A DNA stretch of 64,000 bases, taken from the IMG/VR virus record IMGVR_UViG_3300044981_000078, positions 1 to 64,000 of that record, one strand, 5' to 3'. Of this stretch, positions 6,868 to 63,768 are shown one piece after another; the first letter of the stretch is position 1, and each line of letters starts with the position of its first letter. The stretch is from a virus. The notes under the pieces were generated by a model. It was not told where the DNA came from. It saw only the letters and a list, made by a program, of their open reading frames with translations, and ran no database searches. A program made the position numbers and the translations under genes.

Positions 6868-9126
6868 TTATGCTCGTAGCCCATTTCCCCCAAAAATTCG
6901 TTGGGCTATTGAACTGTTTCCAACGTCTTCGGAGGGGGTATATATTGGTTCCAATGCCGGAGGATTTATGTTATATCTACCAAACATTGCGTCGTGCTGC
7001 GCTCTTAAAATCTTTGCGCCCATCTCTCTTTCTAGCTGCTCCACCTCTTGCTGTTGCTGCTCAGGAGATTTTGGAGTACTGCTAGGAAGATATCGGCTAA
7101 TAAAAGATAGCGCATCTGGGATGTCGTCTTTTCTAGAACGTGTACTTTTAGCCCCAGTGTATTGACTTAACTGAGTAAAAGTTTCGTCGTTCCACGGTCC
7201 CATAGCAAAATATAATCGATCAGACTTAAGTAAGACCTCAAGGCCTTTAACTCGATTACGTTTTGCGTCGTATCCCTGTTCAACTGGCGCTCTAAATATG
7301 TGGTACCACGGTAACCCGGTTTTCTTAAAGTGCTCCGGAATGGCATACATCCAGAATGACTCCAGACCTCCGGTATCCTCAACGTGTATTCGTTTTGGTA
7401 ACCAGCGCTGATTAAGTTGAGCCAATTCTTGGGCTGTTTGTGTTTGAGTCCACCTGCCGAACACCACTTCTAAAACAACAACCGAAACAATGCCATCTTG
7501 TAGACCAGTTTGCGGGTCTTTCTTTTTATAAATTTTCATGGCTGCAAAGGTAGAAAAATCTGAATTCTTCTTTGCTTCTTTAGCCATATCGCCTACAATG
7601 TATATCTCACCTTTAAGGGCCTGGGCTTCTGTGGGAAGCATTTGATGGGCCTTCAATAACTCTAAAGGCATATCAATAGCATCAGCGCCCCAGACAGGCT
7701 CATTAAGATACTGACATCGGAATGTAGACTCGTTCTTTAGTTTTCCCTGAAGAAACTTCCAGTCTGCGTGCTCTGGAAAGGTCAATGTGACCATGTGCTC
7801 TTCAAGCTCTTTAACTTTTTTATTTCCTATATGCGAAAAAGCTGGCTTAACGTACCAGGCCGCTCGCTTGAACAGCTTGATACCATGAACTTCAGGCTTC
7901 TCGATGGCTGCATCCTCAATATACCCGTAATAATCATCCGGGAAGTATCGAGTACCAATCATATCCACCCAACCCCATGTGTCACATACAGACATGGTGG
8001 TGTCTATGTGGTTCTTTAATTTTTCTCTGGTAACTGTAGTTTGACAGTTGGTGTTTGATACCACGTCATCAAACTTCAATATGTCGCAATGCAAACCAGA
8101 CAATGTGGAATCAATAGAGTCTGCCCAAAGAGTAGGATATGTGCGATCCAGTCTACGAGCCGGACACTTCACAGGCTCATTAGATGTTCCCTTTACACCT
8201 CGTAAAATATACTCTGGAAAAAGTAAGTGAAGGGCGCTCGGTTCCGCTCCGGCAGCAAGGAAAAACTTCTTCTTAATCTGATTAACGAAAATCTCTGCGA
8301 GATTATTATCCGCGCAAAGAATAATCATACTGATATCTGGAACCGAAAGCATCCACTGAACTGCGTCTGCTCTGCCTATGGTTGACTTGAAAAAATCTCT
8401 AGCGTCTTCTGTCAGAGATATCTTTTCATAATTACTTGGAGAGTCTACCTCTTCAGGTCTAAAAACATAATTTTTAGTTTCTGGATTCCATACAGTGGGA
8501 ACACGATTCTGTCTCTTGATGGCCGTGGTTAGTTCCATAATTCCATAACCGGAACGATACACACCATCAAAGTTCTTAGAGACAAACTGATTGCAAACAA
8601 CCTGATGAACTCGCTCCACTACTAAGGTCTCGCCCAGCACTTCTCGGGCTAGCCATAGCAGGTCTTTGCGAGCTTGATCTCTGGCGTACAGCCAATTTTG
8701 AAAGTCTAAATATCCATCATCGTGAAAATGGACACCATAAGAGTATTCACCGGTAGCTATTCCTTTTTTATCAAGAATAGGGTATCCGGCTATTCTTCTA
8801 GCTTTAATTGGCTCTACAGCCGATTCTTTTTTCTTTTTCTTTCCACGTTGTTCTTCTTCCTCGGTTAAATGTTCTACACCGATATAAAGAAGCCACATCT
8901 CTTCCATCGGAGTTCTCTGACGACCAGCGCCGTCAGCCGGACTAGTGTGTCCTTCTCCGCGAAAGTACTTACCTTCTAGACAGCACTCAAGAATTTCTGG
9001 GTCTACCTTGGATAAATCTAAGCCTTCGACCTCGCCCTTAACCAGTTTCGACCAGAATGCAGTTTGTTTCTTCGCACGATGACTAACAAACTCCCAGTCT
9101 CTTTTAGGTTGCCCCGTTAATGGCAT
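6868..9126 (-). CDS. Terminase large subunit
   Basis: 752 residues, large for the family. The ATPase half (about 200-450) includes DISMIILCADNNLAEIFV (the strand after motif A) and LRGVKGTSNEPVKCPARRLD. The nuclease half has acidic motifs at GDMAKEAKKNSD (about 510), HVEDTGG (about 595) and DDIPDALSF (about 690). The expected P-loop is degenerate: around residue 245 FFKST is present without the usual GxxGxG. It packages DNA through the portal encoded next. A long N-terminal extension with a Lys-rich run is unusual. Confidence 0.75.
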   Translation of the reverse strand: MPLTGQPKRDWEFVSHRAKKQTAFWSKLVKGEVEGLDLSKVDPEILECCLEGKYFRGEGHTSPADGAGRQRTPMEEMWLLYIGVEHLTEEEEQRGKKKKKESAVEPIKARRIAGYPILDKKGIATGEYSYGVHFHDDGYLDFQNWLYARDQARKDLLWLAREVLGETLVVERVHQVVCNQFVSKNFDGVYRSGYGIMELTTAIKRQNRVPTVWNPETKNYVFRPEEVDSPSNYEKISLTEDARDFFKSTIGRADAVQWMLSVPDISMIILCADNNLAEIFVNQIKKKFFLAAGAEPSALHLLFPEYILRGVKGTSNEPVKCPARRLDRTYPTLWADSIDSTLSGLHCDILKFDDVVSNTNCQTTVTREKLKNHIDTTMSVCDTWGWVDMIGTRYFPDDYYGYIEDAAIEKPEVHGIKLFKRAAWYVKPAFSHIGNKKVKELEEHMVTLTFPEHADWKFLQGKLKNESTFRCQYLNEPVWGADAIDMPLELLKAHQMLPTEAQALKGEIYIVGDMAKEAKKNSDFSTFAAMKIYKKKDPQTGLQDGIVSVVVLEVVFGRWTQTQTAQELAQLNQRWLPKRIHVEDTGGLESFWMYAIPEHFKKTGLPWYHIFRAPVEQGYDAKRNRVKGLEVLLKSDRLYFAMGPWNDETFTQLSQYTGAKSTRSRKDDIPDALSFISRYLPSSTPKSPEQQQQEVEQLEREMGAKILRAQHDAMFGRYNINPPALEPIYTPSEDVGNSSIAQRIFGGNGLRA

Positions 9127-17265: not shown

Positions 17266-17339
17266 TGGTCGGGGATGGAAGAATCGGACTTCCGTCTCAC
17301 CCATCCGAAGGGCGTAGATTGCCATTATCAGAATCCCCG
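17266..17339 (-). tRNA. tRNA-Pro(CGG)
   Basis: Acceptor CGGGGAT/ATCCCCG, T-loop TCCGATT, anticodon loop TTCGGAT, encoded CCA. The C1 with GGGG start is typical of proline tRNAs. Reads CCG. Confidence 0.85.
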
Positions 17340-17442
17340 TGACACCGCCACTTTCCGCTCGCTAATGACCCCTTGAGCCTTCGGACGATGGGGGACCGTT
17401 GTTCTCGGGAACGATTGCCGCCAATTATTAAAATTGGTAAAC
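17340..17442 (-). other. Unassigned spacer with hairpins between tRNA-Pro genes
   Basis: 103 bases without a cloverleaf. Possible stems GGTCCCC/GGGGTC and CGTT/AACG. No ORF of note. Could be an unrecognised small RNA. Confidence 0.25.
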
Positions 17443-17530
17443 TGGTCGGGGTACGGTGACTCGAACACCGAAGGTCTCTCGACACCGGTTTCCAAAACCG
17501 GACTGCTTCCATTTACAGAGCTATACCCCG
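17443..17530 (-). tRNA. tRNA-Pro(TGG) with long variable region
   Basis: Acceptor CGGGGTA/TACCCCG, D-arm GCT/AGC, anticodon loop TTTGGAA, T-arm CGGTG-TTCGAGT-CACCG, encoded CCA. The 14-base variable region is longer than normal for proline. Confidence 0.8.
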
Positions 17531-17536
17531 TTAAAC

Positions 17537-17908
17537 TTATTGTCGTGCTGACAAAAGAGTTGTATGATCCATACGCTCACCACCAGACTTTTGTTGCTGC
17601 GGCTTCGTTGGCTCATGCGATTGATCTCCGCCATATTCGTCCAATAGACTCGGCGGAAGAATCAAAATTTTTTTACCGTCTGTGCTGTGTCCTGCGTAAA
17701 CCCCGGGCTCTACTCCGGCTGGTGCGGCCACAAAAATCTGTGTGCCATCGGGAACGACTAGTGGTACTAACGCTCCGGTCGCCGGGTCTGCTACCATAAC
17801 ATGCGGTATTACTACAGATCGTACTCCGACTTTCTTTCCGACAAAGAAACAACTGACAGCGACAGTCAATCCGAGAACAAAAGCCAACGTTGAAGTAATT
17901 ACGCTCAT
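17537..17908 (-). CDS. Small membrane-anchored protein
   Basis: About 123 residues from ATG 17908 (MSVITSTLAFVLGLTVAVSC). One N-terminal membrane span (about 5-24) is followed by a Val/Pro-rich extracytoplasmic part (VADPATGALVPLVVPDGTQI). Embedded in the tRNA array transcript. An envelope or lysis-accessory role is possible; family not recognised. Confidence 0.55.
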   Translation of the reverse strand: MSVITSTLAFVLGLTVAVSCFFVGKKVGVRSVVIPHVMVADPATGALVPLVVPDGTQIFVAAPAGVEPGVYAGHSTDGKKILILPPSLLDEYGGDQSHEPTKPQQQKSGGERMDHTTLLSARQ

Positions 17909-17988
17909 AAATCTCCCGGGACAGAGCACAATTATCGTCGCTCAAGTTCGCTGCGGTGAACTTAATCCTCTGCTCGACGTTACAAACT

Positions 17989-18063
17989 TGGATGCGCGAA
18001 CTGGATTCGAACCAGTATAAACAGGGTCAGGGCCTGTTGGACTGCCAATTGTCCGATCACGCA
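17989..18063 (-). tRNA. tRNA-Gln(CTG)
   Basis: Acceptor TGCGTGA/TCGCGCA, D-arm GGAC/GTCC, anticodon loop CCCTGAC, T-loop TTCGAAT, CCA encoded. Position 33 is C instead of the near-universal T. Confidence 0.8.
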
Positions 18064-18071
18064 ATTGAAAC

Positions 18072-18149
18072 TGGTTGGCCTCGAAGGATTCAAACCTTCA
18101 GTCGCATCGGTTCAAAGCCGAGCATGTTATCAATTACACCAGAGGCCAA
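18072..18149 (-). tRNA. tRNA-Gln(TTG)
   Basis: Acceptor TTGGCCT/AGGCCAA, anticodon loop CTTTGAA, T-arm TGAAGG-TTTGAAT-CCTTCG, CCA encoded. Reads CAA. Confidence 0.85.
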
Positions 18150-18154
18150 TAAAT

Positions 18155-18228
18155 TGGAGAGCCGGGTGAGAGTCTAACTCACCAAAGCGGGTTTGCAATC
18201 CGCCGCCTAGACGATTGGCTTCCGACTC
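18155..18228 (-). tRNA. tRNA-Cys(GCA)
   Basis: Acceptor GAGTCGG/CCGGCTC, anticodon loop TTGCAAA, T-stem GTGAG/CTCAC region with loop TTAGACT, CCA encoded. The last pair of the anticodon stem is an A-C mismatch. Confidence 0.8.
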
Positions 18229-18239
18229 AATAAATTGAC

Positions 18240-18272
18240 GCAGGGACCAAGAGTTAACATTGAAATCCCTGC
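18240..18272 (-). other. Isolated 7-bp hairpin between tRNAs
   Basis: GCAGGGA/TCCCTGC stem with a 19-base loop, no cloverleaf and no U-tract. Its 3' side (CTTGGTCCCTGC) faintly resembles the Y RNA 3' end, but not enough to call. Confidence 0.3.
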
Positions 18273-18280
18273 ATAGAAAA

Positions 18281-18365
18281 TGGAGGAAGATAACGTATCG
18301 AAACGTAAGCCTCTCGGCTTGGCTGGTGTTCAAGGCCAGTTGAGCGCCCTTGCTCCCTATCTTCC
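18281..18365 (-). tRNA. tRNA-Ser(TGA)
   Basis: Type II tRNA: acceptor GGAAGAT/ATCTTCC, anticodon loop CTTGAAC, variable hairpin AAGCC-GAGA-GGCTT, T-loop TTCGATA in a short stem, CCA encoded. The T-stem is irregular. Confidence 0.75.
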
Positions 18366-18369
18366 ATAA

Positions 18370-18459
18370 TGGCGGAGGATACAGGATTTGAACCTGTACA
18401 AGCTTACGCTTGGCTTCCGCTTAGCAAGCGGACACAATACCGGGTTCTGTCAACCCTCC
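18370..18459 (-). tRNA. tRNA-Ser(GCT)
   Basis: Type II: acceptor GGAGGGT/ATCCTCC, anticodon loop TTGCTAA, long variable arm, CCA encoded. Its first 10 bases overlap the stop end of the endonuclease ORF upstream. Confidence 0.85.
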
Positions 18460-18860
18460 AAATACTTTATAGCACTTTGCATGAATGCTAGATTATCTTC
18501 AAACGATCCTATCCCTCGGTTACAAGAACTACAAAGCAAGCCACGCACTTTTTTAGTTGAGTGACAATGATCTATAACCAGCTTTTTATCTCGTTGGCAA
18601 ATTGCACATAAGCCGTGCTGCCGTTCCTGCATCTGTTTATATTGTTCTTCCGTTATCTTATATTTTCGAGTGTAGTCTTTTACGTAATTATAAGGGCCTT
18701 GCCGTGCTTTAATGGCCTCTTTATTATTCTGGTATCTTACAGCTTCGTATTTTGACCTACAATCCTTACACTGCGGGTGTCTTCTATCTCTTCCCTTCGT
18801 GTGATAATCAAAACGCTCAATGTCTTTCTCAATGCCGCACTTAGAACACAATTTCATCAT
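18450..18860 (-). CDS. Endonuclease VII-like HNH endonuclease, cassette E
   Basis: 136 residues. N-terminal zinc ribbon CSKCGIEKDIERF...CKDCRSKYE (about 5-40), basic middle, then CAICQRDKKLVIDHCHSTKKVRGLLCSSCNRGIG (about 85-118), a complete endonuclease VII-type core. The stop codon lies inside the 5' acceptor of tRNA-Ser(GCT). GGGAGAG ribosome site. Confidence 0.85.
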   Translation of the reverse strand: MMKLCSKCGIEKDIERFDYHTKGRDRRHPQCKDCRSKYEAVRYQNNKEAIKARQGPYNYVKDYTRKYKITEEQYKQMQERQHGLCAICQRDKKLVIDHCHSTKKVRGLLCSSCNRGIGSFEDNLAFMQSAIKYLEG

Positions 18861-18882
18861 AACACTCTCCCTTAAAGAGTGC

Positions 18883-18924
18883 CGGGAGGTGTTAAGGGCA
18901 CCTCCCGACTAATTGTACGTACAA
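18883..18924 (-). promoter_or_regulatory. Leader of cassette E: palindrome plus CC-loop hairpin
   Basis: Minus strand: palindrome TTGTACGTACAA (18913-18924), then a 9-bp stem CGGGAGGTG/CACCTCCCG with loop CCCTTAA (18883-18907). The same palindrome occurs at the matching place in two other cassettes. Confidence 0.6.
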
Positions 18925-18927
18925 ACC

Positions 18928-19134
18928 TTATTGGTTCAATGCCTGTTTAGCTTTTTGAACCATATCTCCCTTGGCCTTCAGTTCATCACCAAGCGAAGGG
19001 GCCTTGCGTGCTTCTCGCGCCGCGCTATATGTCGGTTTCTGTGGCTGCGGCATACTCGGACTAGGAAACTTCTGTTCTGCCTCTCCGAGTACCTTCTTAG
19101 CGTTTGCTAAGGTTGTTTCAATATCTTGCGGCAT
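18928..19134 (-). CDS. Small hypothetical protein
   Basis: 68 residues (MPQDIETTLANAKKVLGEAE...), helical ends with a Pro/Ser linker. Lies right after the RNase P RNA (10 bases from its 3' end). Weak ribosome site. Function unknown. Confidence 0.5.
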   Translation of the reverse strand: MPQDIETTLANAKKVLGEAEQKFPSPSMPQPQKPTYSAAREARKAPSLGDELKAKGDMVQKAKQALNQ

Positions 19135-19144
19135 AATTTTCGAT

Positions 19145-19444
19145 GGTGAACTTGTAAGCAGGATTCTGTTCCGTGCGTTCTTATAGAAGCACGGTGACTG
19201 CCATTCGTCTTTGCTGCCTACCCGACCTTCATCACGCTAAACAAACGTTCCGGTCCTATTTGGCATTGCTCTGGTGTGGATTATCTTCGCTCCAATGATG
19301 TAAGCGTTCGATGACTTTCTAGAATGTCACCGTTCAATTACATACGAAGGCTTACCCGTACGCTTTCGCGCCCCGCAACTTCCACGGCACCATGTTTAGA
19401 TGAGTCCTGACTTTCCTCTGTTTCCAGCGGCAGTCTAGTTCACC
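19145..19444 (-). ncRNA. rnpB: RNase P RNA (bacterial type A-like)
   Basis: 300 nt. The 5' conserved region reads GAGGAAAGTCAGGACTC and the 3' one ACAGAATCCTGCTTA. Together they form P4 with the bulged U kept and the pairing changed from the common CCGGG/CCCGG to CAGGA/TCCTG, a compensatory change. AGCAATGCCAAATAGGACCG and GGTCGGGTAGGCAGC match other conserved core blocks. Ends pair perfectly as P1 (GGTGAACT/AGTTCACC). It is the catalytic RNA for tRNA 5' maturation. It starts 4 nt after the CCA of tRNA-Arg(CCT), so it is probably released from the array transcript by tRNA processing. No RNase P protein gene is visible in the window. Confidence 0.92.
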
Positions 19445-19448
19445 AATA

Positions 19449-19525
19449 TGGACTCGCTGGCGGGACTCGAACCCGCATACATCAGTTTAGGAAACTAAGC
19501 CCCGATCCTTTCGAGGAACAGCGAG
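19449..19525 (-). tRNA. tRNA-Arg(CCT)
   Basis: Acceptor CTCGCTG/CAGCGAG, anticodon loop TTCCTAA, T-arm GCGGG-TTCGAGT-CCCGC, CCA encoded. Reads AGG. Immediately upstream of the RNase P RNA. Confidence 0.85.
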
Positions 19526-19532
19526 AAAATTT

Positions 19533-19606
19533 TTATCCCTTCAGGTGCGCGACCGGAGTCCGGTGCGTTTTAGTTTCGAGAGTTTCACTCTACCCCTTCG
19601 GGATAA
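19533..19606 (-). other. tRNA-like element, degenerate
   Basis: 74 nt, right size and position for a tRNA, with acceptor-like ends TTATCCC/GGGATAA and a GGTCGCGCACC T-arm-like hairpin. No balanced anticodon arm and no encoded CCA. Either a decayed tRNA or another tRNA-like RNA. Confidence 0.35.
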
Positions 19607-19609
19607 AAC

Positions 19610-19684
19610 TGGGGGGCCGTAACGGAGTCCAACCGTTCTCTTGGAGTTAGAAGCTCCAGGTCCTATGCGATGAACGAACAGCCC
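19610..19684 (-). tRNA. tRNA-Arg(TCT)
   Basis: Acceptor GGGCTGT/ACGGCCC, anticodon stem TGGAG/CTCCA with loop CTTCTAA, T-arm AACGG-TTGGACT-CCGTT, CCA encoded. Reads AGA. Confidence 0.85.
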
Positions 19685-19690
19685 AAAACT

Positions 19691-19765
19691 TGGCGAGAGA
19701 TGATGGATTCGAACCACCAAAAGCGCGTTTGGAGTGCGCCGGTTTGCCGTTAAGCCTAATCTCTC
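19691..19765 (-). tRNA. tRNA-Trp(CCA)
   Basis: Acceptor GAGAGAT/ATCTCTC, anticodon loop CTCCAAA, T-loop TTCGAAT, CCA encoded. The anticodon stem ends in an A-C mismatch, as in the Cys gene. Confidence 0.8.
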
Positions 19766-19772
19766 ATAAAAC

Positions 19773-19848
19773 TGGAGCGGAACATGGGATTCGAACCCAC
19801 TCGTTCAGTTTGGAAAACTGACATGCTAGCCGTTAACATCAGTCCCGC
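19773..19848 (-). tRNA. tRNA-Gly(TCC)
   Basis: Acceptor GCGGGAC/GTTCCGC, anticodon stem TCAGT/ACTGA with loop TTTCCAA, T-arm GTGGG-TTCGAAT-CCCAT, CCA encoded. GCGGG start is typical for glycine. Confidence 0.85.
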
Positions 19849-19977
19849 TTAAAATCCATAAATCCACAACTCATGATCCAGAATCGGACGAAACACATGC
19901 TTATCGCCAGGTGTCCACAGATACAATCCTAACTCAGTGGACATGATAATAAAAGCAGATTCTGAATGCACGTACAT
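19849..19977 (-). CDS. Possible 42-residue protein
   Basis: ATG 19977 to TAA 19849, in a gap between two tRNA genes. Sequence MYVHSESAFIIMSTELGLYL... is aromatic-rich with no low-complexity bias. An internal ATG at 19944 would give 31 residues. No clear ribosome site. The stop touches the 5' end of tRNA-Gly(TCC). Confidence 0.35.
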   Translation of the reverse strand: MYVHSESAFIIMSTELGLYLWTPGDKHVFRPILDHELWIYGF

Positions 19978-19984
19978 ATAAATT

Positions 19985-20055
19985 TGTGGCACCCACCTCA
20001 CGGTCCCGGTGCCCCGGACTAGGTATTGAGGGCAACCCTCGTGCGCCTAGACGCT
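19985..20055 (-). other. Unassigned structured RNA candidate
   Basis: Minus strand: a long hairpin CTAGG/CCTAG enclosing GAGGG-TTG-CCCTC, then a second GGCACC/GGTGCC hairpin, with no cloverleaf and no CCA. Between tRNA-Gly(GCC) and the small ORF. Confidence 0.35.
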
Positions 20056-20060
20056 GTGAT

Positions 20061-20135
20061 TGGAGCGATGTGCGGGAAATCGAACCCGCGCCTATGACTT
20101 GGCAAGCCATCGGACTTCCATTATCCGAACATCGC
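20061..20135 (-). tRNA. tRNA-Gly(GCC)
   Basis: Acceptor GCGATGT/ACATCGC, anticodon loop TTGCCAA, T-arm GCGGG-TTCGATT-CCCGC, CCA encoded. Its 5' end abuts the stop codon of the nuclease gene upstream. Confidence 0.85.
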
Positions 20136-20540
20136 CTAAAATTCAAAGTCTTTAGCAAAACGTAATCCGGTTTTTATGCTCTTAGAAGGCTCTATACGTA
20201 ATGACATTGTGCCTTTAACACACTTCTCTATAGGAACAAAATATGTCTTTCCATTGTCGGGGCAATAAACTCCGAAAGCGTCTATATCGTCTTTCGAATA
20301 ATAATTCATACCTGCTGCTGTCACACTATAAGTTCTAAATTTTACCACACCTTTTCTAATTCGTGCAGTCTTACATTGAACACGTATGAATTTTCCCTTC
20401 TCATCATCTAATAAAAGGTCATATCGAGAAGCACCGTTAAAAGGTATAAAAATTTTCTTACCCCTCAGCAGTAGCGCCGCTAAAATCATTCCTTCTGTAA
20501 CAGAACCTACTCCACTCGTATCTTTCATTTGTCTCTCCAC
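20136..20540 (-). CDS. PD-(D/E)XK homing-type endonuclease, cassette F
   Basis: 134 residues. GSVTEGMILAALLLRGKKIFIPFN (helix plus strand) is followed by RYDLLLDDEKGKFIRVQCKTAR, giving a D-x(n)-Q-x-K active site (about 53-70) of the I-Ssp6803I-like or group-I-intron-associated PD-(D/E)XK family. This fold is unrelated to HNH. It nevertheless has the same leader hairpin as the HNH cassettes. Stop is directly next to the 5' end of tRNA-Gly(GCC). Strong TGGAGAG ribosome site. Confidence 0.7.
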   Translation of the reverse strand: MERQMKDTSGVGSVTEGMILAALLLRGKKIFIPFNGASRYDLLLDDEKGKFIRVQCKTARIRKGVVKFRTYSVTAAGMNYYSKDDIDAFGVYCPDNGKTYFVPIEKCVKGTMSLRIEPSKSIKTGLRFAKDFEF

Positions 20541-20549
20541 TATAGAGTC

Positions 20550-20589
20550 GGAGGGGTGATAGTGGCACCCCTCCCAGTTGTACGTACAA
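20550..20589 (-). promoter_or_regulatory. Leader of cassette F: palindrome plus CC-loop hairpin
   Basis: Minus strand: palindrome TTGTACGTACAA (20578-20589), then a 9-bp stem GGAGGGGTG/CACCCCTCC with loop CCACTAT (20550-20574), then the ribosome site. Confidence 0.6.
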
Positions 20590-20595
20590 AATCAA

Positions 20596-21072
20596 TTAGG
20601 CGTGATCGCCTTTGTCACCCTTGTCGCCTTTAGGTCCGGGGTCTCCACGGTCGCCTTTGTCGCCCTTTATAGAGTCACCTTTATCGCCCTTATCACCTTT
20701 GTCACCTTTTACAGAATCACCTTTATCGCCTTTAGGTCCTATTACGGTATCACCTTTATCGCCCTTAATAGAATCGCCTTTATCACCCTTTAGGCCGTGC
20801 TCTCCGTTAGTTCCTGGATCGCCCTTATCACCCTTCACAGAGTCGCCTTTGTCACCCTTAATTCCTGGAATTCCAATATCGCCGCGATCCCCCTTCGGGC
20901 CTGCGGGTCCTGTTATAGATTTACCGTCGGCTCCGTTTTTTCCAGGGGCTCCTTGAGGTCCTACCGGTCCCGCCGGACCTGCTACCGGCGCTGTCTTAAA
21001 CAGACTGTGAACTAACGCAATAACTCCGGATGCCAACCCTGCTACAGCAATATAATCCGCGTATGGAATCAT
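20596..21072 (-). CDS. Collagen-like membrane-anchored protein
   Basis: 158 residues. N-terminal hydrophobic segment (about 5-25) then about 40 Gly-X-Y triplets ([20 protein letters not shown], then many GDKGD units) to the end. Collagen-like repeats in phages form trimeric stalks in fibres or surface proteins (family knowledge). The repeat length may vary between isolates. No globular cap is visible. Confidence 0.8.
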
Positions 21073-21124
21073 CTTAGTCCCCTCAGAACTAAAACTAACA
21101 TGTGGTACAGTACTACCTCAAATG

Positions 21125-21201
21125 TGGTCGCTGTGAGTGGAATCAAACCACTTATGATGACGCTTTATGAGAGCGTTGTTCACTCGGAGAACATCACAGC
21201 G
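21125..21201 (-). tRNA. tRNA-Met or Ile2 (CAT), first copy
   Basis: Acceptor CGCTGTG/CACAGCG, anticodon stem ACGCT/AGCGT with loop CTCATAA, T-arm AGTGG-TTTGATT-CCACT, CCA encoded. It could read AUG or, if lysidine-modified, AUA. Confidence 0.8.
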
Positions 21202-21208
21202 TTAAAAT

Positions 21209-21284
21209 TGGTTGCGGGTCTAAGAGTCGCACTTAGCTGAAATCAGTTTATGAGGCTGATGACTTCCTCGAAGTCTAACCCGCG
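21209..21284 (-). tRNA. tRNA-Met (CAT), second copy, with C1-A72 mismatch
   Basis: Acceptor CGCGGGT/ACCCGCA leaves C1 opposite A72, a feature of initiator tRNAs. Anticodon loop CTCATAA. The stem lacks the initiator GGG/CCC pairs and the T-loop (TGCGACT) is unusual. Its 5' end overlaps the stop of an endonuclease remnant. Confidence 0.7.
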
Positions 21285-21401
21285 ATAGAAATTTTATATT
21301 CTACGTTTCTTATTCCGAACGTAGGTAACTGAGAATGACAATTAGGACATGTAATTGCTAAATTCTCTTCTCGATTATCCCAAAACTTGCCATTCTTATG
21401 A
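21275..21401 (-). pseudogene. Truncated HNH endonuclease remnant, cassette G
   Basis: About 42 codons that encode the tail of an HNH protein: NHKNGKFWDNREENLAITCP then NCHSQLPTFGIRN. Everything 5' of this is missing. The palindrome TTGTACGTACAA lies directly upstream (21402-21413), where complete cassettes E and F have it. The stop TAG is inside the 5' acceptor of tRNA-Met. Confidence 0.7.
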
Positions 21402-21413
21402 TTGTACGTACAA
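21402..21413. repeat. Palindrome TTGTACGTACAA, third copy
   Basis: A perfect 12-bp palindrome, identical to 18913-18924 and 20578-20589. All three copies mark the upstream boundary of endonuclease cassettes in the tRNA array. Confidence 0.7.
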
Positions 21414-21416
21414 AAA

Positions 21417-21494
21417 TGGTGGGTCTGGTGAGAGTCGAACTCACAAATTCTCCGGTCTAAACGGAGCACATATGCCATATTCTGTTACAGACCC
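21417..21494 (-). tRNA. tRNA-Leu(TAG), type I-like
   Basis: Acceptor GGGTCTG/CAGACCC, anticodon stem CTCCG/CGGAG with loop TTTAGAC, T-arm GTGAG-TTCGACT-CTCAC, CCA encoded. The variable region is only about 5 nt, while leucine tRNAs normally have a long arm. Confidence 0.7.
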
Positions 21495-21499
21495 AAACT

Positions 21500-21575
21500 T
21501 GGCGGGGTTACCGGGAATCGAACCCGGATAGTGAGATTGAAAGTCTCACGAATTGACCGCTTATTCGATAACCCC
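21500..21575 (-). tRNA. tRNA-Glu(TTC)
   Basis: Acceptor GGGGTTA/TAACCCC, anticodon stem TGAGA/TCTCA with loop CTTTCAA, T-arm CCGGG-TTCGATT-CCCGG, CCA encoded. Confidence 0.85.
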
Positions 21576-21584
21576 AAAATTGAA

Positions 21585-21679
21585 TTCGGCCTTAGCAAAA
21601 TTTCTCAGTTACTTTTGCTTTTTCGCAACCCTCGGAGACTAGGAACTGAGATGGTCTCGACAAGGTGAAGCCGACCGAA
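21585..21679 (-). other. Unassigned structured RNA in tRNA array
   Basis: 95 nt with closing TTCGG/CCGAA, an internal perfect 8-bp stem TCTCAGTT/AACTGAGA, and hairpins CCT/AGG and TTGC-GAAAAA-GCAA. Flanked by tRNAs 9 and 3 nt away. Not a cloverleaf and not clearly Y-like. Confidence 0.4.
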
Positions 21680-21682
21680 ACT

Positions 21683-21756
21683 TGGTAGCCCTGAACGGAA
21701 TCTAACCGTTGCTTTTCCCGTGAGAGGGGAATGACCTGACACTAATCGACAGGGCC
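21683..21756 (-). tRNA. tRNA-Glu(CTC)
   Basis: Acceptor GGCCCTG/CAGGGCT, anticodon stem TTCCC/GGGAA with loop CTCTCAC, T-arm AACGG-TTAGATT-CCGTT, CCA encoded. G1-U72 wobble. Confidence 0.8.
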
Positions 21757-21763
21757 ATTAAAC

Positions 21764-21839
21764 TGGCGGCGTTGACGAGAATCGAACTCGCACCTTCGTT
21801 CGTGACAGGAACGCGCACTCACCGTTATGCTACAACGCC
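21764..21839 (-). tRNA. tRNA-Asp(GTC)
   Basis: Acceptor GGCGTTG/CAACGCC, anticodon stem CGTTC/GAACG with loop CTGTCAC, T-loop TTCGATT, CCA encoded. Confidence 0.85.
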
Positions 21840-21901
21840 ATAAATTTTTGCCCTGACTAGTGGTAGCTAGCCGCCGATGTGGGACCACATCGTTATAACA
21901 C
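21840..21901 (-). other. Spacer with hairpins
   Basis: Minus strand: CGATGTGG/CCACATCG hairpin with a 2-nt loop and a CTAGC/ACTAG stem. No U-tract directly after. Possibly a processing or attenuation site. Confidence 0.25.
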
Positions 21902-21976
21902 TGGAGCCGAAACCAGGAATCCAACCTGGGATTACTCATTACCAATGAGTCGTCTTAAGCACTAGACTATATCGGC
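21902..21976 (-). tRNA. tRNA-Thr(GGT)
   Basis: Acceptor GCCGATA/TTTCGGC with one T-T mismatch, anticodon stem ACTCA/TGAGT with loop TTGGTAA, T-arm CCAGG-TTGGATT-CCTGG, CCA encoded. Confidence 0.85.
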
Positions 21977-21982
21977 AAAACT

Positions 21983-22056
21983 TGGAGCAGCGTCTGAGAA
22001 TCTAACTCAGGTCAACGCATTACGAGTGCGTGATAATCACACTATACCAACGCTGC
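21983..22056 (-). tRNA. tRNA-Thr(CGT)
   Basis: Acceptor GCAGCGT/ACGCTGC, anticodon stem ACGCA/TGCGT with loop CTCGTAA, T-arm CTGAG-TTAGATT-CTCAG, CCA encoded. Confidence 0.85.
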
Positions 22057-22060
22057 AAAC

Positions 22061-23095
22061 TTACGCCGTTGCCTTTCGGCTCTTATCTCGGCGGAATATC
22101 AAATAATCAGAGTGACCGTCCCAATCTAAAACTACTGTGTCACCTGTCTTGACCTGTTCGGTTGACAGCAATCGTGACATCGGACGGACTACATACTTCT
22201 CAATCGTTCTCTTCAGGTGACGAGCGCCGTAGTTTATATCTGTGCCCTCACGAAGCAAAAACTTCTTAGCCGACTCGTGAGTACTGAAAAGAAACTGGGC
22301 CTTGTCATTATGCAAAATTCTATTCTGAACGATCTCTAGTTCGATATCCAGTATACGATAGAGATGCTCAGATGTCAAGGGATGAAATACCACCACCTTG
22401 TCCAGCCGGTTCATAAACTCAGGAGAAAACTTTCTCTTTGCTGCTTCCTGAGCTATCCTATCAATCTTGTTGTCTAACTGAGTCTCGATTTGAGGTTGCG
22501 AAAACCCCATTGAACCGTTAAACAAACTAGTAATATCTTTGGCCCCGAGATTAGAGGTCAAGAATATCATTGTCAGAGACAGATCAACTCTACGGTTGTC
22601 TCCGAGTGTCAAGGTCGCCTTGTCAAGCATACCAAGTAATAGCTGCCACAGAGAGTCTGACGCTTTCTCAATTTCATCGAATAATAGAAAGCTCAGTCTA
22701 AGACCTTCTTTGTGATATGTCGCCAACGCTTCCTGGGTTATCTTCGGGTGTGTTTCCCGATGACCTAGATATCCCGGAGGTGAACCGATTAACTTTGCTA
22801 TCTCGTGACTGTGTTGAAACTCAGCACAGTCTATCTTAATGGCTGCACGCGGGTCACCAAATAAAACTTCCGCTGTCGCTTCAACTACTCTGGTCTTGCC
22901 AATTCCTGTCGGCCCAAGAAATAAAAAGTTACTTATCGGACGACCGGCGGGGCACAGCCCTGCCCGAAACATTTCAAAGGAGTCTACGATAGCCTCAACC
23001 GCATCTTGCTGGCCGATTATCTTCTCTTCTAAAGAAGACTGAAAACCGATCAGTTCTCGGCTCTTACGGGTCGGGTCCAAATCTGACATAGTCAT
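22061..23095 (-). CDS. AAA+ ATPase resembling the ClpB/ClpC D2 domain
   Basis: About 344 residues from ATG 23095. Walker A GPTGIGKT (61-68), pore-loop region GSPPGYLGH, Walker B FLLFDEIEKA, sensor 1 IFLTSNLGA, arginine finger region FSPEFMNRLDKVVVF and a D2-small domain ending in a beta strand. The N-domain, D1 and middle domain of full Clp proteins are absent. No obvious ClpP-binding loop was identified. It could act as an unfoldase or as an adaptor for host Clp. Sits inside the tRNA array. Confidence 0.85.
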   Translation of the reverse strand: MTMSDLDPTRKSRELIGFQSSLEEKIIGQQDAVEAIVDSFEMFRAGLCPAGRPISNFLFLGPTGIGKTRVVEATAEVLFGDPRAAIKIDCAEFQHSHEIAKLIGSPPGYLGHRETHPKITQEALATYHKEGLRLSFLLFDEIEKASDSLWQLLLGMLDKATLTLGDNRRVDLSLTMIFLTSNLGAKDITSLFNGSMGFSQPQIETQLDNKIDRIAQEAAKRKFSPEFMNRLDKVVVFHPLTSEHLYRILDIELEIVQNRILHNDKAQFLFSTHESAKKFLLREGTDINYGARHLKRTIEKYVVRPMSRLLSTEQVKTGDTVVLDWDGHSDYLIFRRDKSRKATA

Positions 23096-23121
23096 AGAAC
23101 CCCCGAACAACTGTAACAAAC

Positions 23122-23196
23122 TGGAGCACGATAAAGGTTTCGAACCTTTTCCCGCTGTTTACAAGACAGCAGTTCTACCAATTAAACTAATCGTGC
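23122..23196 (-). tRNA. tRNA-Thr(TGT)
   Basis: Acceptor GCACGAT/ATCGTGC, anticodon stem GCTGT/ACAGC with loop CTTGTAA, T-arm AAAGG-TTCGAAA-CCTTT, CCA encoded. The Y RNA ends 3 nt upstream of it. Confidence 0.85.
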
Positions 23197-23199
23197 ATA

Positions 23200-23280
23200 G
23201 CGAGGAATCAAGCGACCTAGGGTATGGGCTTGCGCCCGCTCTATTTACAGTAGAAGTATCCCAGGTCTAACGTCACTCGC
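23200..23280 (-). ncRNA. Y RNA (Ro60-binding RNA) inside tRNA array
   Basis: 81 nt, ends paired GCGAG/CTCGC. It aligns along its length with the Y RNA next to ro60 (57989-58072): TGACGTTAGA versus TGCCGTTAGA, TACTTCTACTG versus TACTTCTTACTG, an AGAGCGGGC-GCAA-GCCC hairpin in the same place, CATACCCTA versus CATATCCTA, and an identical TCGCTTGAT near the 3' end. It lies 3 and 5 nt from neighbouring tRNAs, so it is likely excised by tRNA processing enzymes. Confidence 0.8.
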
Positions 23281-23285
23281 GAAAC

Positions 23286-23372
23286 TGGCTGGGGCGGTAG
23301 GCATCGAACCTACAGGTGTCTTGCGACTCTCGGGTAACAGCCGAGTGGGTTTACCAATTCCCCTACGCCCCA
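23286..23372 (-). tRNA. tRNA-Asn(GTT) with long variable arm
   Basis: Acceptor TGGGGCG/CGCCCCA, anticodon stem CTCGG/CCGAG with loop CTGTTAC, variable hairpin GTC-GCAA-GAC, T-arm GTAGG-TTCGATG-CCTAC, CCA encoded. A type II arm is not normal for asparagine. Confidence 0.75.
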
Positions 23373-23374
23373 AT

Positions 23375-23482
23375 ATTTAAAATGTTTACCCGGCTATCAC
23401 GGGTACCGCTTGGGTTCCACTTGCGACCTACCCACAACTGGTAGCCGCCTTTTGTTGTGTTACGCTTCGCACTATAACATAC
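23375..23482 (-). other. Unassigned structured RNA in tRNA array
   Basis: Stems CGGCTA/TAGCCG and TACCCG/CGGGTA are visible. Weak similarity to the Y RNA ends (TACCAGTTG near the 5' side, CGTGATA near the 3' side). No cloverleaf. Confidence 0.35.
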
Positions 23483-23557
23483 TGGAAGGCAACCGGGGAA
23501 TCCAACCCCGACTTTCGCGTTCGAAGCGCGATGTCTTGTGCATTCGACTAGTCGCCC
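23483..23557 (-). tRNA. tRNA-Arg(TCG)
   Basis: Acceptor GGGCGAC/GTTGCCT, anticodon stem TCGCG/CGCGA with loop CTTCGAA, T-arm CGGGG-TTGGATT-CCCCG, CCA encoded. Confidence 0.85.
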
Positions 23558-23564
23558 ATAAATC

Positions 23565-23640
23565 TGGAGGGCCGTAAGAGAATCGAACTCTTTTCTCGAC
23601 GTTCGTAGCGTCGTGTCCTATTCCGGTGAACGAACAGCCC
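23565..23640 (-). tRNA. tRNA-Arg(ACG)
   Basis: Acceptor GGGCTGT/ACGGCCC, anticodon stem CGACG/CGTCG with loop CTACGAA, T-arm AAGAG-TTCGATT-CTCTT, CCA encoded. A34 would need editing to inosine for wobble. Confidence 0.85.
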
Positions 23641-23649
23641 ATTAAAACT

Positions 23650-23725
23650 TGGTAGCCAACTTCGGACTCGAACCGAAAACCCCTTGTTTGTAGGACAAGT
23701 GCTCTTGCCATTGAGCTAGTCGGCT
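23650..23725 (-). tRNA. tRNA-Val(TAC)
   Basis: Acceptor AGCCGAC/GTTGGCT, anticodon stem CTTGT/ACAAG with loop CCTACAA (C33), T-arm TTCGG-TTCGAGT-CCGAA, CCA encoded. Confidence 0.85.
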
Positions 23726-23732
23726 AAACTTT

Positions 23733-23905
23733 TGCGGGACGGTGGAGCTTCGCTCACTTCGCCGGACTGATTACCACACATAGCCATCGTTTACCGATGC
23801 TGACGCCCGCATTAATAGTCTGGGTGCCCGGGGATTCTCACCCCGCCGTCACGACAGTACTGACTAGTCTTCCTGCCGGACTGGTAACGAATTACCGCGT
23901 ACCCG
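23733..23905 (-). other. Unassigned structured RNA region, two related halves
   Basis: Two blocks share TTACCAGTCCGGC / TAATCAGTCCGGC. One has GCGGG/CCCGC ends, the other GGGT/ACCC ends plus a CGGGG-TGAGAAT-CCCCG arm that looks like a T-arm. Neither folds as a normal tRNA and neither has CCA. Could be one RNA or a duplication. Confidence 0.4.
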
Positions 23906-23912
23906 TAAAACT

Positions 23913-23986
23913 TGGTGGACCGTACATGAATCGAACATGCACCGCTTCCTTGCAAGGGAAACAGACTCCCGTTATCCTAACGGCCC
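23913..23986 (-). tRNA. tRNA-Ala(TGC)
   Basis: Acceptor GGGCCGT/ACGGTCC, anticodon loop CTTGCAA, T-arm GCATG-TTCGATT-CATGT, CCA encoded. Confidence 0.85.
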
Positions 23987-23990
23987 AAAA

Positions 23991-24110
23991 TTACTTCTTA
24001 TGAAAAACTGTCTTATACAAACTGTAATTAAACTTATATTCAGCGAATGATGTTGCTAATCCGGCACCGAACAGAACTGCTAGTACCGCTACTGCTTTCA
24101 GAATTAGCAT
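23991..24110 (-). CDS. 39-residue membrane peptide
   Basis: ATG 24110 to TAA 23991 with AAGGGG 7 bases upstream. MLILKAVAVLAVLFGAGLAT is a membrane span or signal anchor, followed by a short Tyr/Lys-rich tail. Too short for common ORF cut-offs. Could be a toxin-like or envelope-active peptide; function unknown. Confidence 0.6.
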   Translation of the reverse strand: MLILKAVAVLAVLFGAGLATSFAEYKFNYSLYKTVFHKK

Positions 24111-24123
24111 ACTGTCCCCTTGA

Positions 24124-24178
24124 AATATTCGCGGCCTGTTCCCAGAACTAGTCAACCGTATCGAACGGCGAGGCGAAA
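24124..24178 (-). other. Structured spacer
   Basis: Ends TTCGC/GCGAA enclosing CCGT-TCGAT-ACGG (T-arm-like) and GTTC-TGG-GAAC hairpins. 55 nt, too short for a tRNA; perhaps a decayed one. Confidence 0.3.
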
Positions 24179-24179
24179 T

Positions 24180-24255
24180 TGGTTGTGGTCACAGGAATCG
24201 AACCTGTTGCCTCTCGCCTATCAAGCGAGCGCCCATCCTTATGTGCTTGACCACA
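24180..24255 (-). tRNA. tRNA-Ile(GAT)
   Basis: Acceptor TGTGGTC/GACCACA, anticodon stem CTCGC/GCGAG with loop TTGATAG, T-arm ACAGG-TTCGATT-CCTGT, CCA encoded. Confidence 0.85.
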
Positions 24256-24374
24256 ATAAAACTTTTCTTCAAGAAGCCACCGTGCCAATGCACCAATACT
24301 ATTCGGTTGCTTCGCGAGTTTTTCTAGCTCTTATTTTGTACAGAGCTTTTGTGATGGTTCATAACTCATAAAAC
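24256..24374 (-). other. Gap holding a possible broken small ORF
   Basis: Minus strand from ATG at about 24366 reads MSYEPSQKLCTK, then TAA, then continues open as ELEKLAKQPNSIGALARWLL. Either a decayed gene or coincidence. No RNA fold seen. Confidence 0.25.
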
Positions 24375-24464
24375 TGGAGGAGTAGGCTGGATTCGAACCA
24401 GCAGTGTTCGCAAGGAACTCCGCTTTTACAGAGCGGTGGGATTACCGGATATCCCGTCTACTCC
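24375..24464 (-). tRNA. tRNA-Tyr(GTA)
   Basis: Type II: acceptor GGAGTAG/CTACTCC, anticodon stem CCGCT/AGCGG with loop CTGTAAA, long variable arm, T-arm GCTGG-TTCGAAT-CCAGC, CCA encoded. Confidence 0.87.
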
Positions 24465-24470
24465 AAAACT

Positions 24471-24546
24471 TGGTAGGTCCGGTGGGAGTCCAACCCACAA
24501 CGTTTCGATTAAAAGTCGAGTGCTCTGGCAATTGAGCTACGAACCT
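24471..24546 (-). tRNA. tRNA-Lys(TTT)
   Basis: Acceptor AGGTTCG/CGGACCT, anticodon loop CTTTTAA, T-arm GTGGG-TTGGACT-CCCAC, CCA encoded. Close paralogue of the next gene. Confidence 0.85.
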
Positions 24547-24551
24547 AAATA

Positions 24552-24627
24552 TGGTGACTCCGGTGGAAGTCCAATCCACAACCTATCGGGTAAGAGCCGA
24601 GTGCTCTGGCAATTGAGCTACGAAGTC
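24552..24627 (-). tRNA. tRNA-Lys(CTT)
   Basis: Acceptor GACTTCG/CGGAGTC, anticodon loop CTCTTAC, T-arm GTGGA-TTGGACT-TCCAC, CCA encoded. D-arm and flank nearly identical to the Lys(TTT) gene, so a local duplication. Confidence 0.85.
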
Positions 24628-24633
24628 AAAACT

Positions 24634-24725
24634 TGGTCCGCTAGACTGGATTCGAACCAGTATGCCGTTTTATAGCGGCGGAGGGTTTTAAGTCCTCAGT
24701 GTCTCGCCTGTTCCACCACTAGCGG
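24634..24725 (-). tRNA. tRNA-Leu(TAA)
   Basis: Type II: acceptor CCGCTAG/CTAGCGG, anticodon loop CTTAAAA, variable hairpin CCGCCGCTATAAAACGGC, T-loop TTCGAAT, CCA encoded. Confidence 0.85.
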
Positions 24726-24732
24726 ATAAAAT

Positions 24733-24826
24733 TGGTATTCCCGAGAGGACTCGAACCTCTATCTTGCTGGAATCCCCAGCGACCAAGGTATAAGCTTGGG
24801 GCTCTAACCAATTGAGCTACGGGAAT
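24733..24826 (-). tRNA. tRNA-Ile(TAT) with long variable arm
   Basis: Acceptor ATTCCCG/CGGGAAT, anticodon stem CCAAG/CTTGG with loop CTTATAC, variable hairpin GCTGG/CCAGC, T-arm AGAGG-TTCGAGT-CCTCT, CCA encoded. Isoleucine tRNAs are normally type I. Confidence 0.75.
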
Positions 24827-24828
24827 AT

Positions 24829-24913
24829 TGGTGCGAAAGAGGGGAGTCCAACCCCTACGGTTTTACCCGGCGGTTTTTGAGACCGCTGCGTCTGGCAATT
24901 CCGCCACTCTCGC
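24829..24913 (-). tRNA. tRNA-Leu(CAA)
   Basis: Type II: acceptor GCGAGAG/CTTTCGC, anticodon stem GCGGT/ACCGC with loop CTCAAAA, long variable arm, T-arm AGGGG-TTGGACT-CCCCT, CCA encoded. Confidence 0.85.
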
Positions 24914-24919
24914 ATAATA

Positions 24920-24979
24920 TTTGGGACACTTAAGTCCCAGGTTGGTCTTCACTCCCTCGCGGGCGAAGCTTACCAAACC
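24920..24979 (-). other. Structured spacer RNA
   Basis: Minus strand: a long hairpin AGGTT(T)GGT/ACCAACCT with an inner CTTC(G)CCC-GCGA-GGG(AGT)GAAG, then GGGAC-TTAAGT-GTCCC. Well-formed, but family not recognised. Confidence 0.35.
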
Positions 24980-24984
24980 TAAAC

Positions 24985-25058
24985 TGGTCCTGGCTGTCCG
25001 AGTCGGACGGACACGGCTCGTTCTTCAGACGAGAATGCGACCCCTACATCAAACCAGG
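24985..25058 (-). tRNA. tRNA-Phe(GAA)
   Basis: Acceptor CCTGGTT/AGCCAGG, anticodon stem CTCGT/ACGAG with loop CTGAAGA, T-arm GTCCG-TCCGACT-CGGAC, CCA encoded. First tRNA after the array promoter. Confidence 0.85.
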
Positions 25059-25128
25059 ATAATCTTTCGGGCTTTTGTTGGCGGGAGCCCTGCAACCCGA
25101 CTTAGTGACTTTATATTTAACTTTTAAC

Positions 25129-25157
25129 ACTCTAGCACAGTTCTGAAAACCTGTCAA
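25129..25157 (-). promoter_or_regulatory. Sigma-70-type promoter of the tRNA array
   Basis: Minus strand: TTGACA (25152-25157), 17-base spacer, TAGAGT (25129-25134). Transcription would start near 25122 and run through the tRNA array to the terminator at 17.2 kb, possibly with internal stops. Confidence 0.75.
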
Positions 25158-25168
25158 GCTTTTATTTC

Positions 25169-25206
25169 AAAAATCTTTTGAGGCTTTCATAGTTTGTCGG
25201 TAGCCT
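25169..25206 (-). terminator. Weak terminator after tRNA-His
   Basis: Minus strand: GAGGCT/AGCCTC stem (25180-25206), then AAAAGATTTTT. It separates the His tRNA transcript from the main array promoter. Confidence 0.45.
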
Positions 25207-25257
25207 CTAACCGGACATCTCCATCCTACTTGGGATAGGACCAGTCGGACGGGAACT

Positions 25258-25333
25258 TGGGGCGAAAGATCAGACTCGAACTGACATTCTCCGATTCACA
25301 GTCGGATGTCCTTACCTTTGGACGACAATCGCC
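25258..25333 (-). tRNA. tRNA-His(GTG)
   Basis: Anticodon stem TCCGA/TCGGA with loop CTGTGAA, T-loop TTCGAGT. It has the extra 5' G pairing with C73, which is the histidine identity feature, and an encoded CCA. The acceptor has two T-T mismatches. Confidence 0.8.
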
Positions 25334-29767: not shown

Positions 29768-29959
29768 ATGATAAACTCTTTTGCACCTCGGGATGGGAAA
29801 TGCGAAGACTGTGGCGAGACTCGTTCGCTAAAGGATGGCCTGTGCCACGAATGCACGCAGGCTGAGATTGATGCCAGCAATTGCGCAGAGTGCAATCTTA
29901 CCCAGTCCGCTTGTGTCTGCGAAGGCGGCCCTTGGATTCCGGGCGGGTATCGCCTATGA
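29768..29959 (+). CDS. Small zinc-ribbon protein next to transposase
   Basis: 63 residues from ATG 29768 (GGAGG upstream). An alternative ATG at 29753 coincides with the predicted transcript start. Motifs CEDCGETRSLKDGLCHEC and CAECNLTQSACVC are two zinc sites. Stop overlaps the transposase start (ATGA), suggesting coupling. Confidence 0.6.
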   Translation: MINSFAPRDGKCEDCGETRSLKDGLCHECTQAEIDASNCAECNLTQSACVCEGGPWIPGGYRL

Positions 29960-39604: not shown

Positions 39605-39792
39605 TGGCATCAAAAACAAAAGGCTATCAAGTCCTGGCTAAACTTGAGGTGAGTATAGGTATAGAAATTCAAGCTACAAGTTTAGAAGAAGCAGTTCAAA
39701 AATCAGCGTCTCTAAAAGAAAACGACTTTATTACGATTGAGGGTGATTACTTAGATGGGAGTTTAGAAATAACAGGAGTCTACAAATCATGA
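39604..39792 (+). CDS. Small hypothetical protein
   Basis: 62 residues, one-base overlap with the exonuclease stop. Beta-alpha-beta pattern (VLAKLEVSIGIEIQATSLEE). Not recognised. Confidence 0.5.
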   Translation: MASKTKGYQVLAKLEVSIGIEIQATSLEEAVQKSASLKENDFITIEGDYLDGSLEITGVYKS

Positions 39793-62641: not shown

Positions 62642-62647
62642 TTGGGT

Positions 62648-63599: not shown

Positions 63600-63692
63600 T
63601 GTTCTGGTAGCAAGTTGAATGGTGGATTCGTCGCCCACTGCAAATCGACGATAAGGCAGACGTAAAAGAAAGCAAACCCGTCGGCTACATAT

Positions 63693-63768
63693 GCGGAGGT
63701 AGTTTAATGGTAGAACGATCTGTTAACCAACAGGTAGGTGGCGGTTCAAATCCGACCTCTCCGCTCCA
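63693..63768 (+). tRNA. tRNA-like gene, anticodon uncertain (Asn GTT or expanded loop)
   Basis: Starts GCGGAGG, ends TCTCCGC-T-CCA, T-loop TTCAAAT, D-loop AATGGTAG. The anticodon stem ATCTG/CAGGT encloses an 8-base loop TTAACCAA, one more than normal, and the T-stem has a mismatch. May be a decayed tRNA or one with an expanded anticodon loop. The only tRNA-type gene on the plus strand. Confidence 0.6.

Follow-up and report, generated by a model that had tools for sequence, protein, structure and literature searches.

This work describes a ribonuclease P (RNase P) RNA gene which a phage carries within its array of transfer RNA (tRNA) genes. The gene is located in a 64,000-nucleotide (nt) stretch of viral DNA, hereafter called the window, corresponding to positions 1 to 64,000 of the IMG/VR record IMGVR_UViG_3300044981_000078. 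Judged from its sequence, the element is clearly an RNase P RNA, but one that is viral and that has departed in its specificity domain. It probably constitutes a working, phage-owned RNase P RNA, which would use the host protein subunit RnpA to mature the tandem tRNA precursors of the phage. The grounds for this interpretation are homology, a core that is intact, pairs that covary, the conservation of the gene within tRNA arrays throughout the lineage and the failure to detect an RnpA gene. RNase P, among the few ribozymes that are near-universal, is usually seen as a cellular housekeeping gene. Its recurrence in tRNA-rich phages suggests that some viruses bring their own tRNA-maturation ribozyme, and links viral tRNA arrays to a processing enzyme of their own.

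Identity of the RNA and its catalytic core

A full-length match to RF00010 (RNaseP_bact_a) was obtained with cmscan at window positions 19446-19139 on the minus strand (102.6 bits, E-value 3.1e-30). It covers model positions 1-367, is not truncated and exceeds the gathering score of 100; the rnpB-like gene was annotated accordingly at 19139..19446 (-). A previous sequence-only reading had proposed a bacterial RNase P RNA at 19145-19444, with no strand given and with a covariance search against this same family as the check, and the match bears it out. With an E-value of about 1e-30 and compensatory covariation in 11 phages (see below), the RNase P RNA signal in the window is far beyond chance. 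The surrounding tRNA array (17266..25332, ARAGORN) comprises 32 minus-strand tRNA genes, each of which encodes its CCA, and many neighbours are separated by only 2-9 nt. The post-CCA spacers between neighbouring tRNAs are often AGTTTT or GTTTA. Immediately upstream of the RNase P RNA, tRNA-Arg(cct) (19449..19525, (-), ARAGORN, CCA encoded) ends at 19449, 2 nt from the RF00010 match and 4 nt from helix P1, the latter being the distance given in the sequence-only reading. Downstream, tRNA-Ser lies at 679 nt, with a 68-amino-acid open reading frame and an endonuclease-VII-like gene in between.

Pairing was found in the window sequence for P2, P3, P5, P6 (as a pseudoknot), P7, P8, P9, P10, P15, P16 and P17, including the core helices (P2 and P5 to P10) that the sequence-only reading had left to be checked. 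The P1 strands, GGUGAACU (19437..19444) and AGUUCACC (19145..19152), form the eight perfect pairs described earlier, or 9 consecutive pairs when a flanking U-A is counted; all core features given here are on the minus strand. The strands of P2 lie at 19429..19435 and 19196..19202, while P3 (19418..19427, window sequence) is reduced to 3 bp and a GAAA loop. The 5' strand of P4, GGAAAGUCAGGA (19405..19413), belongs to conserved region (CR) I and bears a conserved bulged U, the equivalent of E. coli U69. Its partner (19156-19163) lies within CR-V (ACAGAAUCCUGCUUA, 19155..19169), as located by motif reading and alignment. AAAG[U]CAGGA faces UCCUGCUU, just as had been described for a CAGGA/TCCTG pairing maintained through compensatory changes. 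The P6 pseudoknot joins CUAAAC (19394..19399) to GUUUAG in L17 (19237..19242, from the alignment), and the CR-IV/J18-2 segment, AGACGAAU, was placed by motif reading at 19203..19210. P15-P16-P17 (19215..19265) contains a GGGU motif, CGGGU in clade RNAs, which is expected to pair with the 3' CCA of tRNA.

Catalytic-domain helices, the P4 and P6 pseudoknots, CR-I, CR-IV and CR-V, and the GGU of L15 were all found, in keeping with membership of class A (RF00010, e.g., E. coli M1 RNA). The phage RNA shares with this class the helix order P1-P2-P3-P4-P5-P6-P7-P8-P9-P10-P15-P16-P17, the three conserved regions just named, the bulged U of P4, the L15 GGU, the P6 pseudoknot and a GNRA loop in L9. It differs from class A in being phage-encoded, in its 3-bp P3, in the absence of P13, P14 and P18 from the window RNA, in the absence of canonical CR-II and CR-III strings, in the replacement of L8 by a conserved UGGAAGUUG loop and, in 8 of the 11 phages, in the rewiring of two variable P4 pairs located 5' of the bulge.

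Conservation and covariation in tRNA-rich phages

The 101,668-base source record encodes a terminase, an SU10-like portal protein (4744..6864, (-), PF23899, phrog_1216), a phage DNA polymerase and an endolysin, with a weak match to an SU10-like adaptor. The terminase large subunit (6868..9126, (-), PF17289, phrog_38) was used as a lineage marker: its relatives were collected from IMG/VR at two depths and their whole records were then searched for RF00010. The RNA was found in G003, G006 and G008, whose terminases are 62-75% identical to that of the window, and in G096, G100, G102, G103 and G104, where this identity is 37-40%. A motif scan, many matches of which were chance, added G107 and G111, giving ten relatives besides the window. 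In 10 of these 11 records (the window and nine others), the RNase P RNA is flanked by tRNA-Arg(cct) and tRNA-Ser(gct), the exception being G111, where it lies between tRNA-Arg(tct) and tRNA-Arg(cct). Among terminase-linked records of at least 28 kb, it was missing only from G005, the listed tRNAs of which are near the contig start, and from G099, which has only 2 tRNAs. The next tRNA begins 2-6 nt past the RNase P RNA in seven of the 11 lineage members, and often only 2-8 nt separate the ends of the RNA from those of mature tRNAs. This tight packing goes beyond what the sequence-only reading had noted, as do the remodelled specificity domain and the lack of an RnpA gene, both described below.

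For the covariation analysis, the 11 RNAs were aligned with MAFFT and 56 pairs were named, covering P2-P10 and P15-P17, with P4 and P6 as pseudoknots. Standard pairs occupied 98.7% of the cells, versus 33-38% when partners were slid by 1-3 columns, a control in which percent-paired favours the proposed structure because the window sequence, together with the Rfam model, served to derive this structure. Changes on both sides of a pair are independent of this derivation bias, and they were found in 37 of the 56 pairs, P4 and the P6 pseudoknot included. The covariation score reached 0.575, versus 0.211 for shuffled data, and none of 500 shuffles attained 0.575; nine of the 11 sequences alone gave a similar outcome. 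By helix, all cells were paired in P2 (both-side changes in 5 of 7 pairs), in P4 (4 of 8) and in P3, P15, P16 and P17, compared with 98.5% in the P6 pseudoknot (6 of 6) and 90.6% in P5. As the alignment shifted P1 by one column, this helix was checked on ungapped sequences: 7-9 consecutive pairs were found in the window, G008, G003, G100, G104 and G102, while for G006, G103 and G096 the script gave other pairings and did not confirm P1.

The core motifs were conserved along with the helices. Clade RNAs kept CR-I (GAGGAA..UC), CR-IV, CR-V (ACAGAA.CC.G..UA), the bulged U of P4 and the GCAAU and AAAUAGG segments; the CGGGU of L15 was present in nine clade RNAs and its columns were conserved in all 11. 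The core nucleotides GNAANNUC, which we take to be the universal, or wider, RNase P RNA consensus, were found in 11/11 phage RNAs together with ACAGAA...UA of CR-V and the P4 pairing, aside from one substitution in G008, the CR-V of which reads ACAAAA (A for G in ACAGAA). Exchanges of paired bases, for instance A-U to C-G to G-C, left P4 intact. At its two variable pairs 5' of the bulge, three phages have A-U/G-C, and the other eight have G-C/U-G or C-G/U-G; these eight depart from the bacterial consensus GAAAGUC and fit GNAANNUC, with pairing fully kept. Phage RNAs are natural deep core variants, most of them having rewired two P4 pairs beside the metal-binding bulge.

These comparisons indicate that the window RNA is not a stray host gene. 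A recently captured or misassembled host rnpB, devoid of function, would be a trivial explanation, and the collection probably does hold such cases, as contigs with RF00010 matches of ~330 bits, most of which lie no more than 0.5 kb from a contig end. It is nevertheless hardly credible for the window, whose RNA is shared by 11 viral records from a single lineage, shows a distinctive common architecture and strong covariation, and is found even where the terminase is just 37-40% identical. The phage-encoded nature of the RNA and its place in a tRNA array, as first read, are therefore upheld by the covariance match, the viral context, the lineage-wide conservation of gene and position and the covariation.

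Records outside this lineage also carry the RNA. In a second set, grouped by tRNA neighbours and not by an established common lineage, it adjoins tRNA-Cys(gca) and/or tRNA-Gly(tcc), and in four records it is within 4-6 nt of both. The members are G105 (463 kb), G106 (170 kb), G108 (101 kb), G109 (34 kb), G110 (89 kb) and G032 (98 kb), among which G106 and G109 may be one virus since their RNase P RNA sequences are identical. The RNA is further carried by G017 and G037 (each of which has a terminase), G019 (phage DNA polymerase), G023 (baseplate and virion proteins) and G036 (252 kb, 48 tRNAs). Terminase was not found in G032 and G036 with two models, nor in G105, G106, G108, G109 and G110 with one model, so the viral status of these seven records rests on IMG/VR. 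Near the RNase P RNA of G036, a sub-threshold match to the Y RNA-like YrlA was observed (L104:2462-2595, 43.7 bits versus a threshold of 69). The ~330-bit contigs (L115-L123) were set aside as probable host DNA, as was G043 (4 tRNAs); these contigs possibly represent elements integrated at or near rnpB.

The sequence-only reading had called a phage-borne RNase P RNA rare. This held for isolates, with no convincing blastn match among 50,697 phage records, but not for environmental sequences, where the RNA recurs in several tRNA-rich phage records. The window RNA itself had no blastn match in these 50,697 records. The RNAs of five other phages either returned nothing or matched a Salmonella record in which an RNase P RNA is annotated, two contigs of 'Acinetobacter phage MD-2021a' and, in part only, fecal 'Bacteriophage sp.' entries; the Salmonella, Acinetobacter phage and unannotated fecal matches were not counted as phage-borne. 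The nearest isolate terminase, with 25% identity, is that of Tunturiibacter phage Tunturi_3, which has an acidobacterial host, and RNase P RNA was not found in this phage. Tunturi_3 carries a permuted transfer-messenger RNA (L176:39672-39896).

Huge phages are known to carry translation and tRNA-related genes beyond tRNAs (PMC7162821), and phage RNase P RNA likewise represents a tRNA-related gene beyond the tRNAs themselves. The terms RNase P, ribonuclease P, rnpB and ribozyme are absent from the main text of that study. The open full-text literature yielded no description of an RNase P RNA in a phage, and papers presenting tools to annotate RNase P RNA leave phages unmentioned; priority is not thereby proven, because preprints and many journals lie outside the literature searched.

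A remodelled specificity domain

The specificity domain (19273..19391, (-)) consists of P7, P8 with a conserved UGGAAGUUG loop, P9 with a GNRA loop, P10 and then a covarying 5-bp stem, followed by a conserved CAUU..AG segment. In a string search, canonical CR-II (ACAGAAA) and CR-III (GUAAGGGUGAAA) were not found at the expected place in clade RNAs, while both strings occur in the RNAs of G017, G032 and G036. P13 and P14 were not found in the window RNA, and P18 is absent from it, 24 model positions being skipped with 0 residues. In class A RNAs, P8 is normally the docking site of L14 and L18. The joint loss of P14, P18 and a normal P8, the latter now bearing the new conserved loop while L9 remains GNRA, is coherent with this docking. 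The RNA of G111 (L256:1501-1851), which belongs to the window lineage, has a longer specificity domain with a CR-III-like stretch and is a possible intermediate, which suggests that erosion of the domain happened within this lineage.

Erosion may go further elsewhere. The RNA of G023 (L112:1501-1716), 216 nt long and scoring 28 bits, belongs to a tRNA array in which tRNA-Thr follows it after 3 nt. On visual inspection, this RNA retains CR-I, CR-IV, CR-V and L15, with ~45 nt replacing the specificity domain. A search for relatives of G023 returned only G023 itself. The RNA of G037, a 389-kb record, measures 265 nt. Archaeal type T RNase P RNA combines a reduced specificity domain with a retained catalytic core and several proteins. 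Compared with it, the window RNA keeps the bacterial P15/L15 and has a specificity domain that is remodelled, not deleted, the 216-nt RNA of G023 being nearer to type T. The loss of P12 in type T RNA concerns Thermoproteaceae (as cited in PMC8172020). Some bacteria also lack P18, and RNase P RNAs of candidate phyla radiation bacteria have lost elements of the specificity domain as well as P18 and give low covariance scores, two-thirds of them being devoid of the CCA-binding UGG (PMC8172020). Phage RNAs resemble these diverged RNAs in their losses and low scores, but the latter belong to cellular genomes and, unlike two-thirds of them, the phage RNAs retain the CCA-binding motif.

An altered specificity domain could mirror altered substrates, with the ribozyme acting mainly on mRNAs of the phage or host, or on structured RNAs, Y-RNA-like ones among them, and on tRNA secondarily. 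Another product of the phage, a TROVE/Ro60-family RNA-binding protein (58092-59495, (+), PF05731, phrog_850), would fit such a role. However, tRNA precursors are the likelier substrates in view of the retained CCA-binding loop, the CCA present on 32 of 32 tRNAs and the position of the gene in a tRNA array, and no Y-RNA family match was found in the window, making a principal role on other targets unlikely. How much of its specificity domain an RNase P RNA can lose is a question raised by these phages. We tentatively consider, with somewhat less than even confidence, that they harbour a family of RNase P ribozymes which evolved in viruses, is located in tRNA polycistrons, releases itself through adjacent pre-tRNA cuts and recognizes tRNA without the canonical CR-II/CR-III T-loop module. 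Its specificity domain would have eroded in phages on more than one occasion, with the window lineage, G023 (216-nt RNA) and G037 (265-nt RNA) as the cases.

Proposed function and further genes of the record

RnpA (PF00825) was not found in the record of the window or in 23 other records, the same family having been matched in 10 of 14 control bacterial genomes. With no RnpA gene found, the phage RNA would most likely work with host RnpA, or alone. From a mechanistic point of view, the RNA may be co-transcribed with the phage tRNA array, fold into a class-A-type catalytic domain and bind host RnpA. The GGU of L15 would then pair with the CCA encoded by phage tRNAs, and the ribozyme would separate the tandem pre-tRNAs of the phage by cutting each at its 5' end, removing the leaders. 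Because the next tRNA starts so close to the RNA in most lineage members, cleavage of this downstream tRNA may also set the 3' end of the ribozyme, thus achieving self-release. As possible purposes, the sequence-only reading had suggested the handling of tRNA-like precursors on which the host enzyme acts poorly, or a substitute for host RNA that has been degraded.

The lack of RnpA and the eroded specificity domain could also point to a decoy, which would titrate host RnpA without processing tRNA, slow host RNase P and so favour the phage. Such a decoy needs neither the P4 bulged U, CR-I, CR-IV and CR-V, the L15 GGU nor the P6 pseudoknot, yet all are kept, by compensatory change, across 11 sequences. 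The location in tRNA arrays of more than one phage set points to tRNA processing, and blocking RNase P would be self-harmful for a phage with about 30 tRNAs. This explanation thus appears very improbable, more so than a principal role on other targets. Several points nonetheless weigh against a working tRNA-maturation ribozyme. Transcription and activity, together with RnpA binding, self-release and any benefit to the phage, are predictions, and the fit with host RnpA is an assumption. The specificity domain appears to lack the canonical CR-II and CR-III strings, which are the normal contacts of the tRNA T-loop region. Only three of the ten relatives are above the Rfam cut-off, seven being below it, and self-release is inapplicable downstream in the window itself, because tRNA-Ser is 679 nt away. 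Whether phage tRNA supply is limited by host RNase P is a further question raised by a tRNA-maturation ribozyme of viral origin.

Other genes were observed in and around the array. It is interspersed with endonuclease VII-like and PD-(D/E)XK endonuclease genes (18450-18860 and 20136-20540, (-)), and it includes a ClpB/ClpA-like AAA gene (22061-23119, (-)) and collagen-like Gly-X-Y repeats, read from open reading frame DNA (20596-21072, (-)). Two similar transposase-like genes (29881-30873 and 62642-63574, (+)), IS1595/ISXO2-like by reading, are unusual for a phage genome; as a clue to the host, their relatives were uninformative, being scattered over phyla, with identities no higher than 45% across most of the protein. 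Beside one transposase-like gene, a tRNA-like match with a 4-base anticodon reading (aacc) was found at 63692-63764 (+). A GroES/Cpn10-family gene is located at 39789-40301 (+). Outside the window, at record positions of about 73559-76174, a NAMPT/NAPRTase-family gene (L002:9559-11040) adjoins a ribose-phosphate-pyrophosphokinase-like gene (L002:11305-12174), a pair which, we assume, resembles those of phage NAD+ reconstitution.
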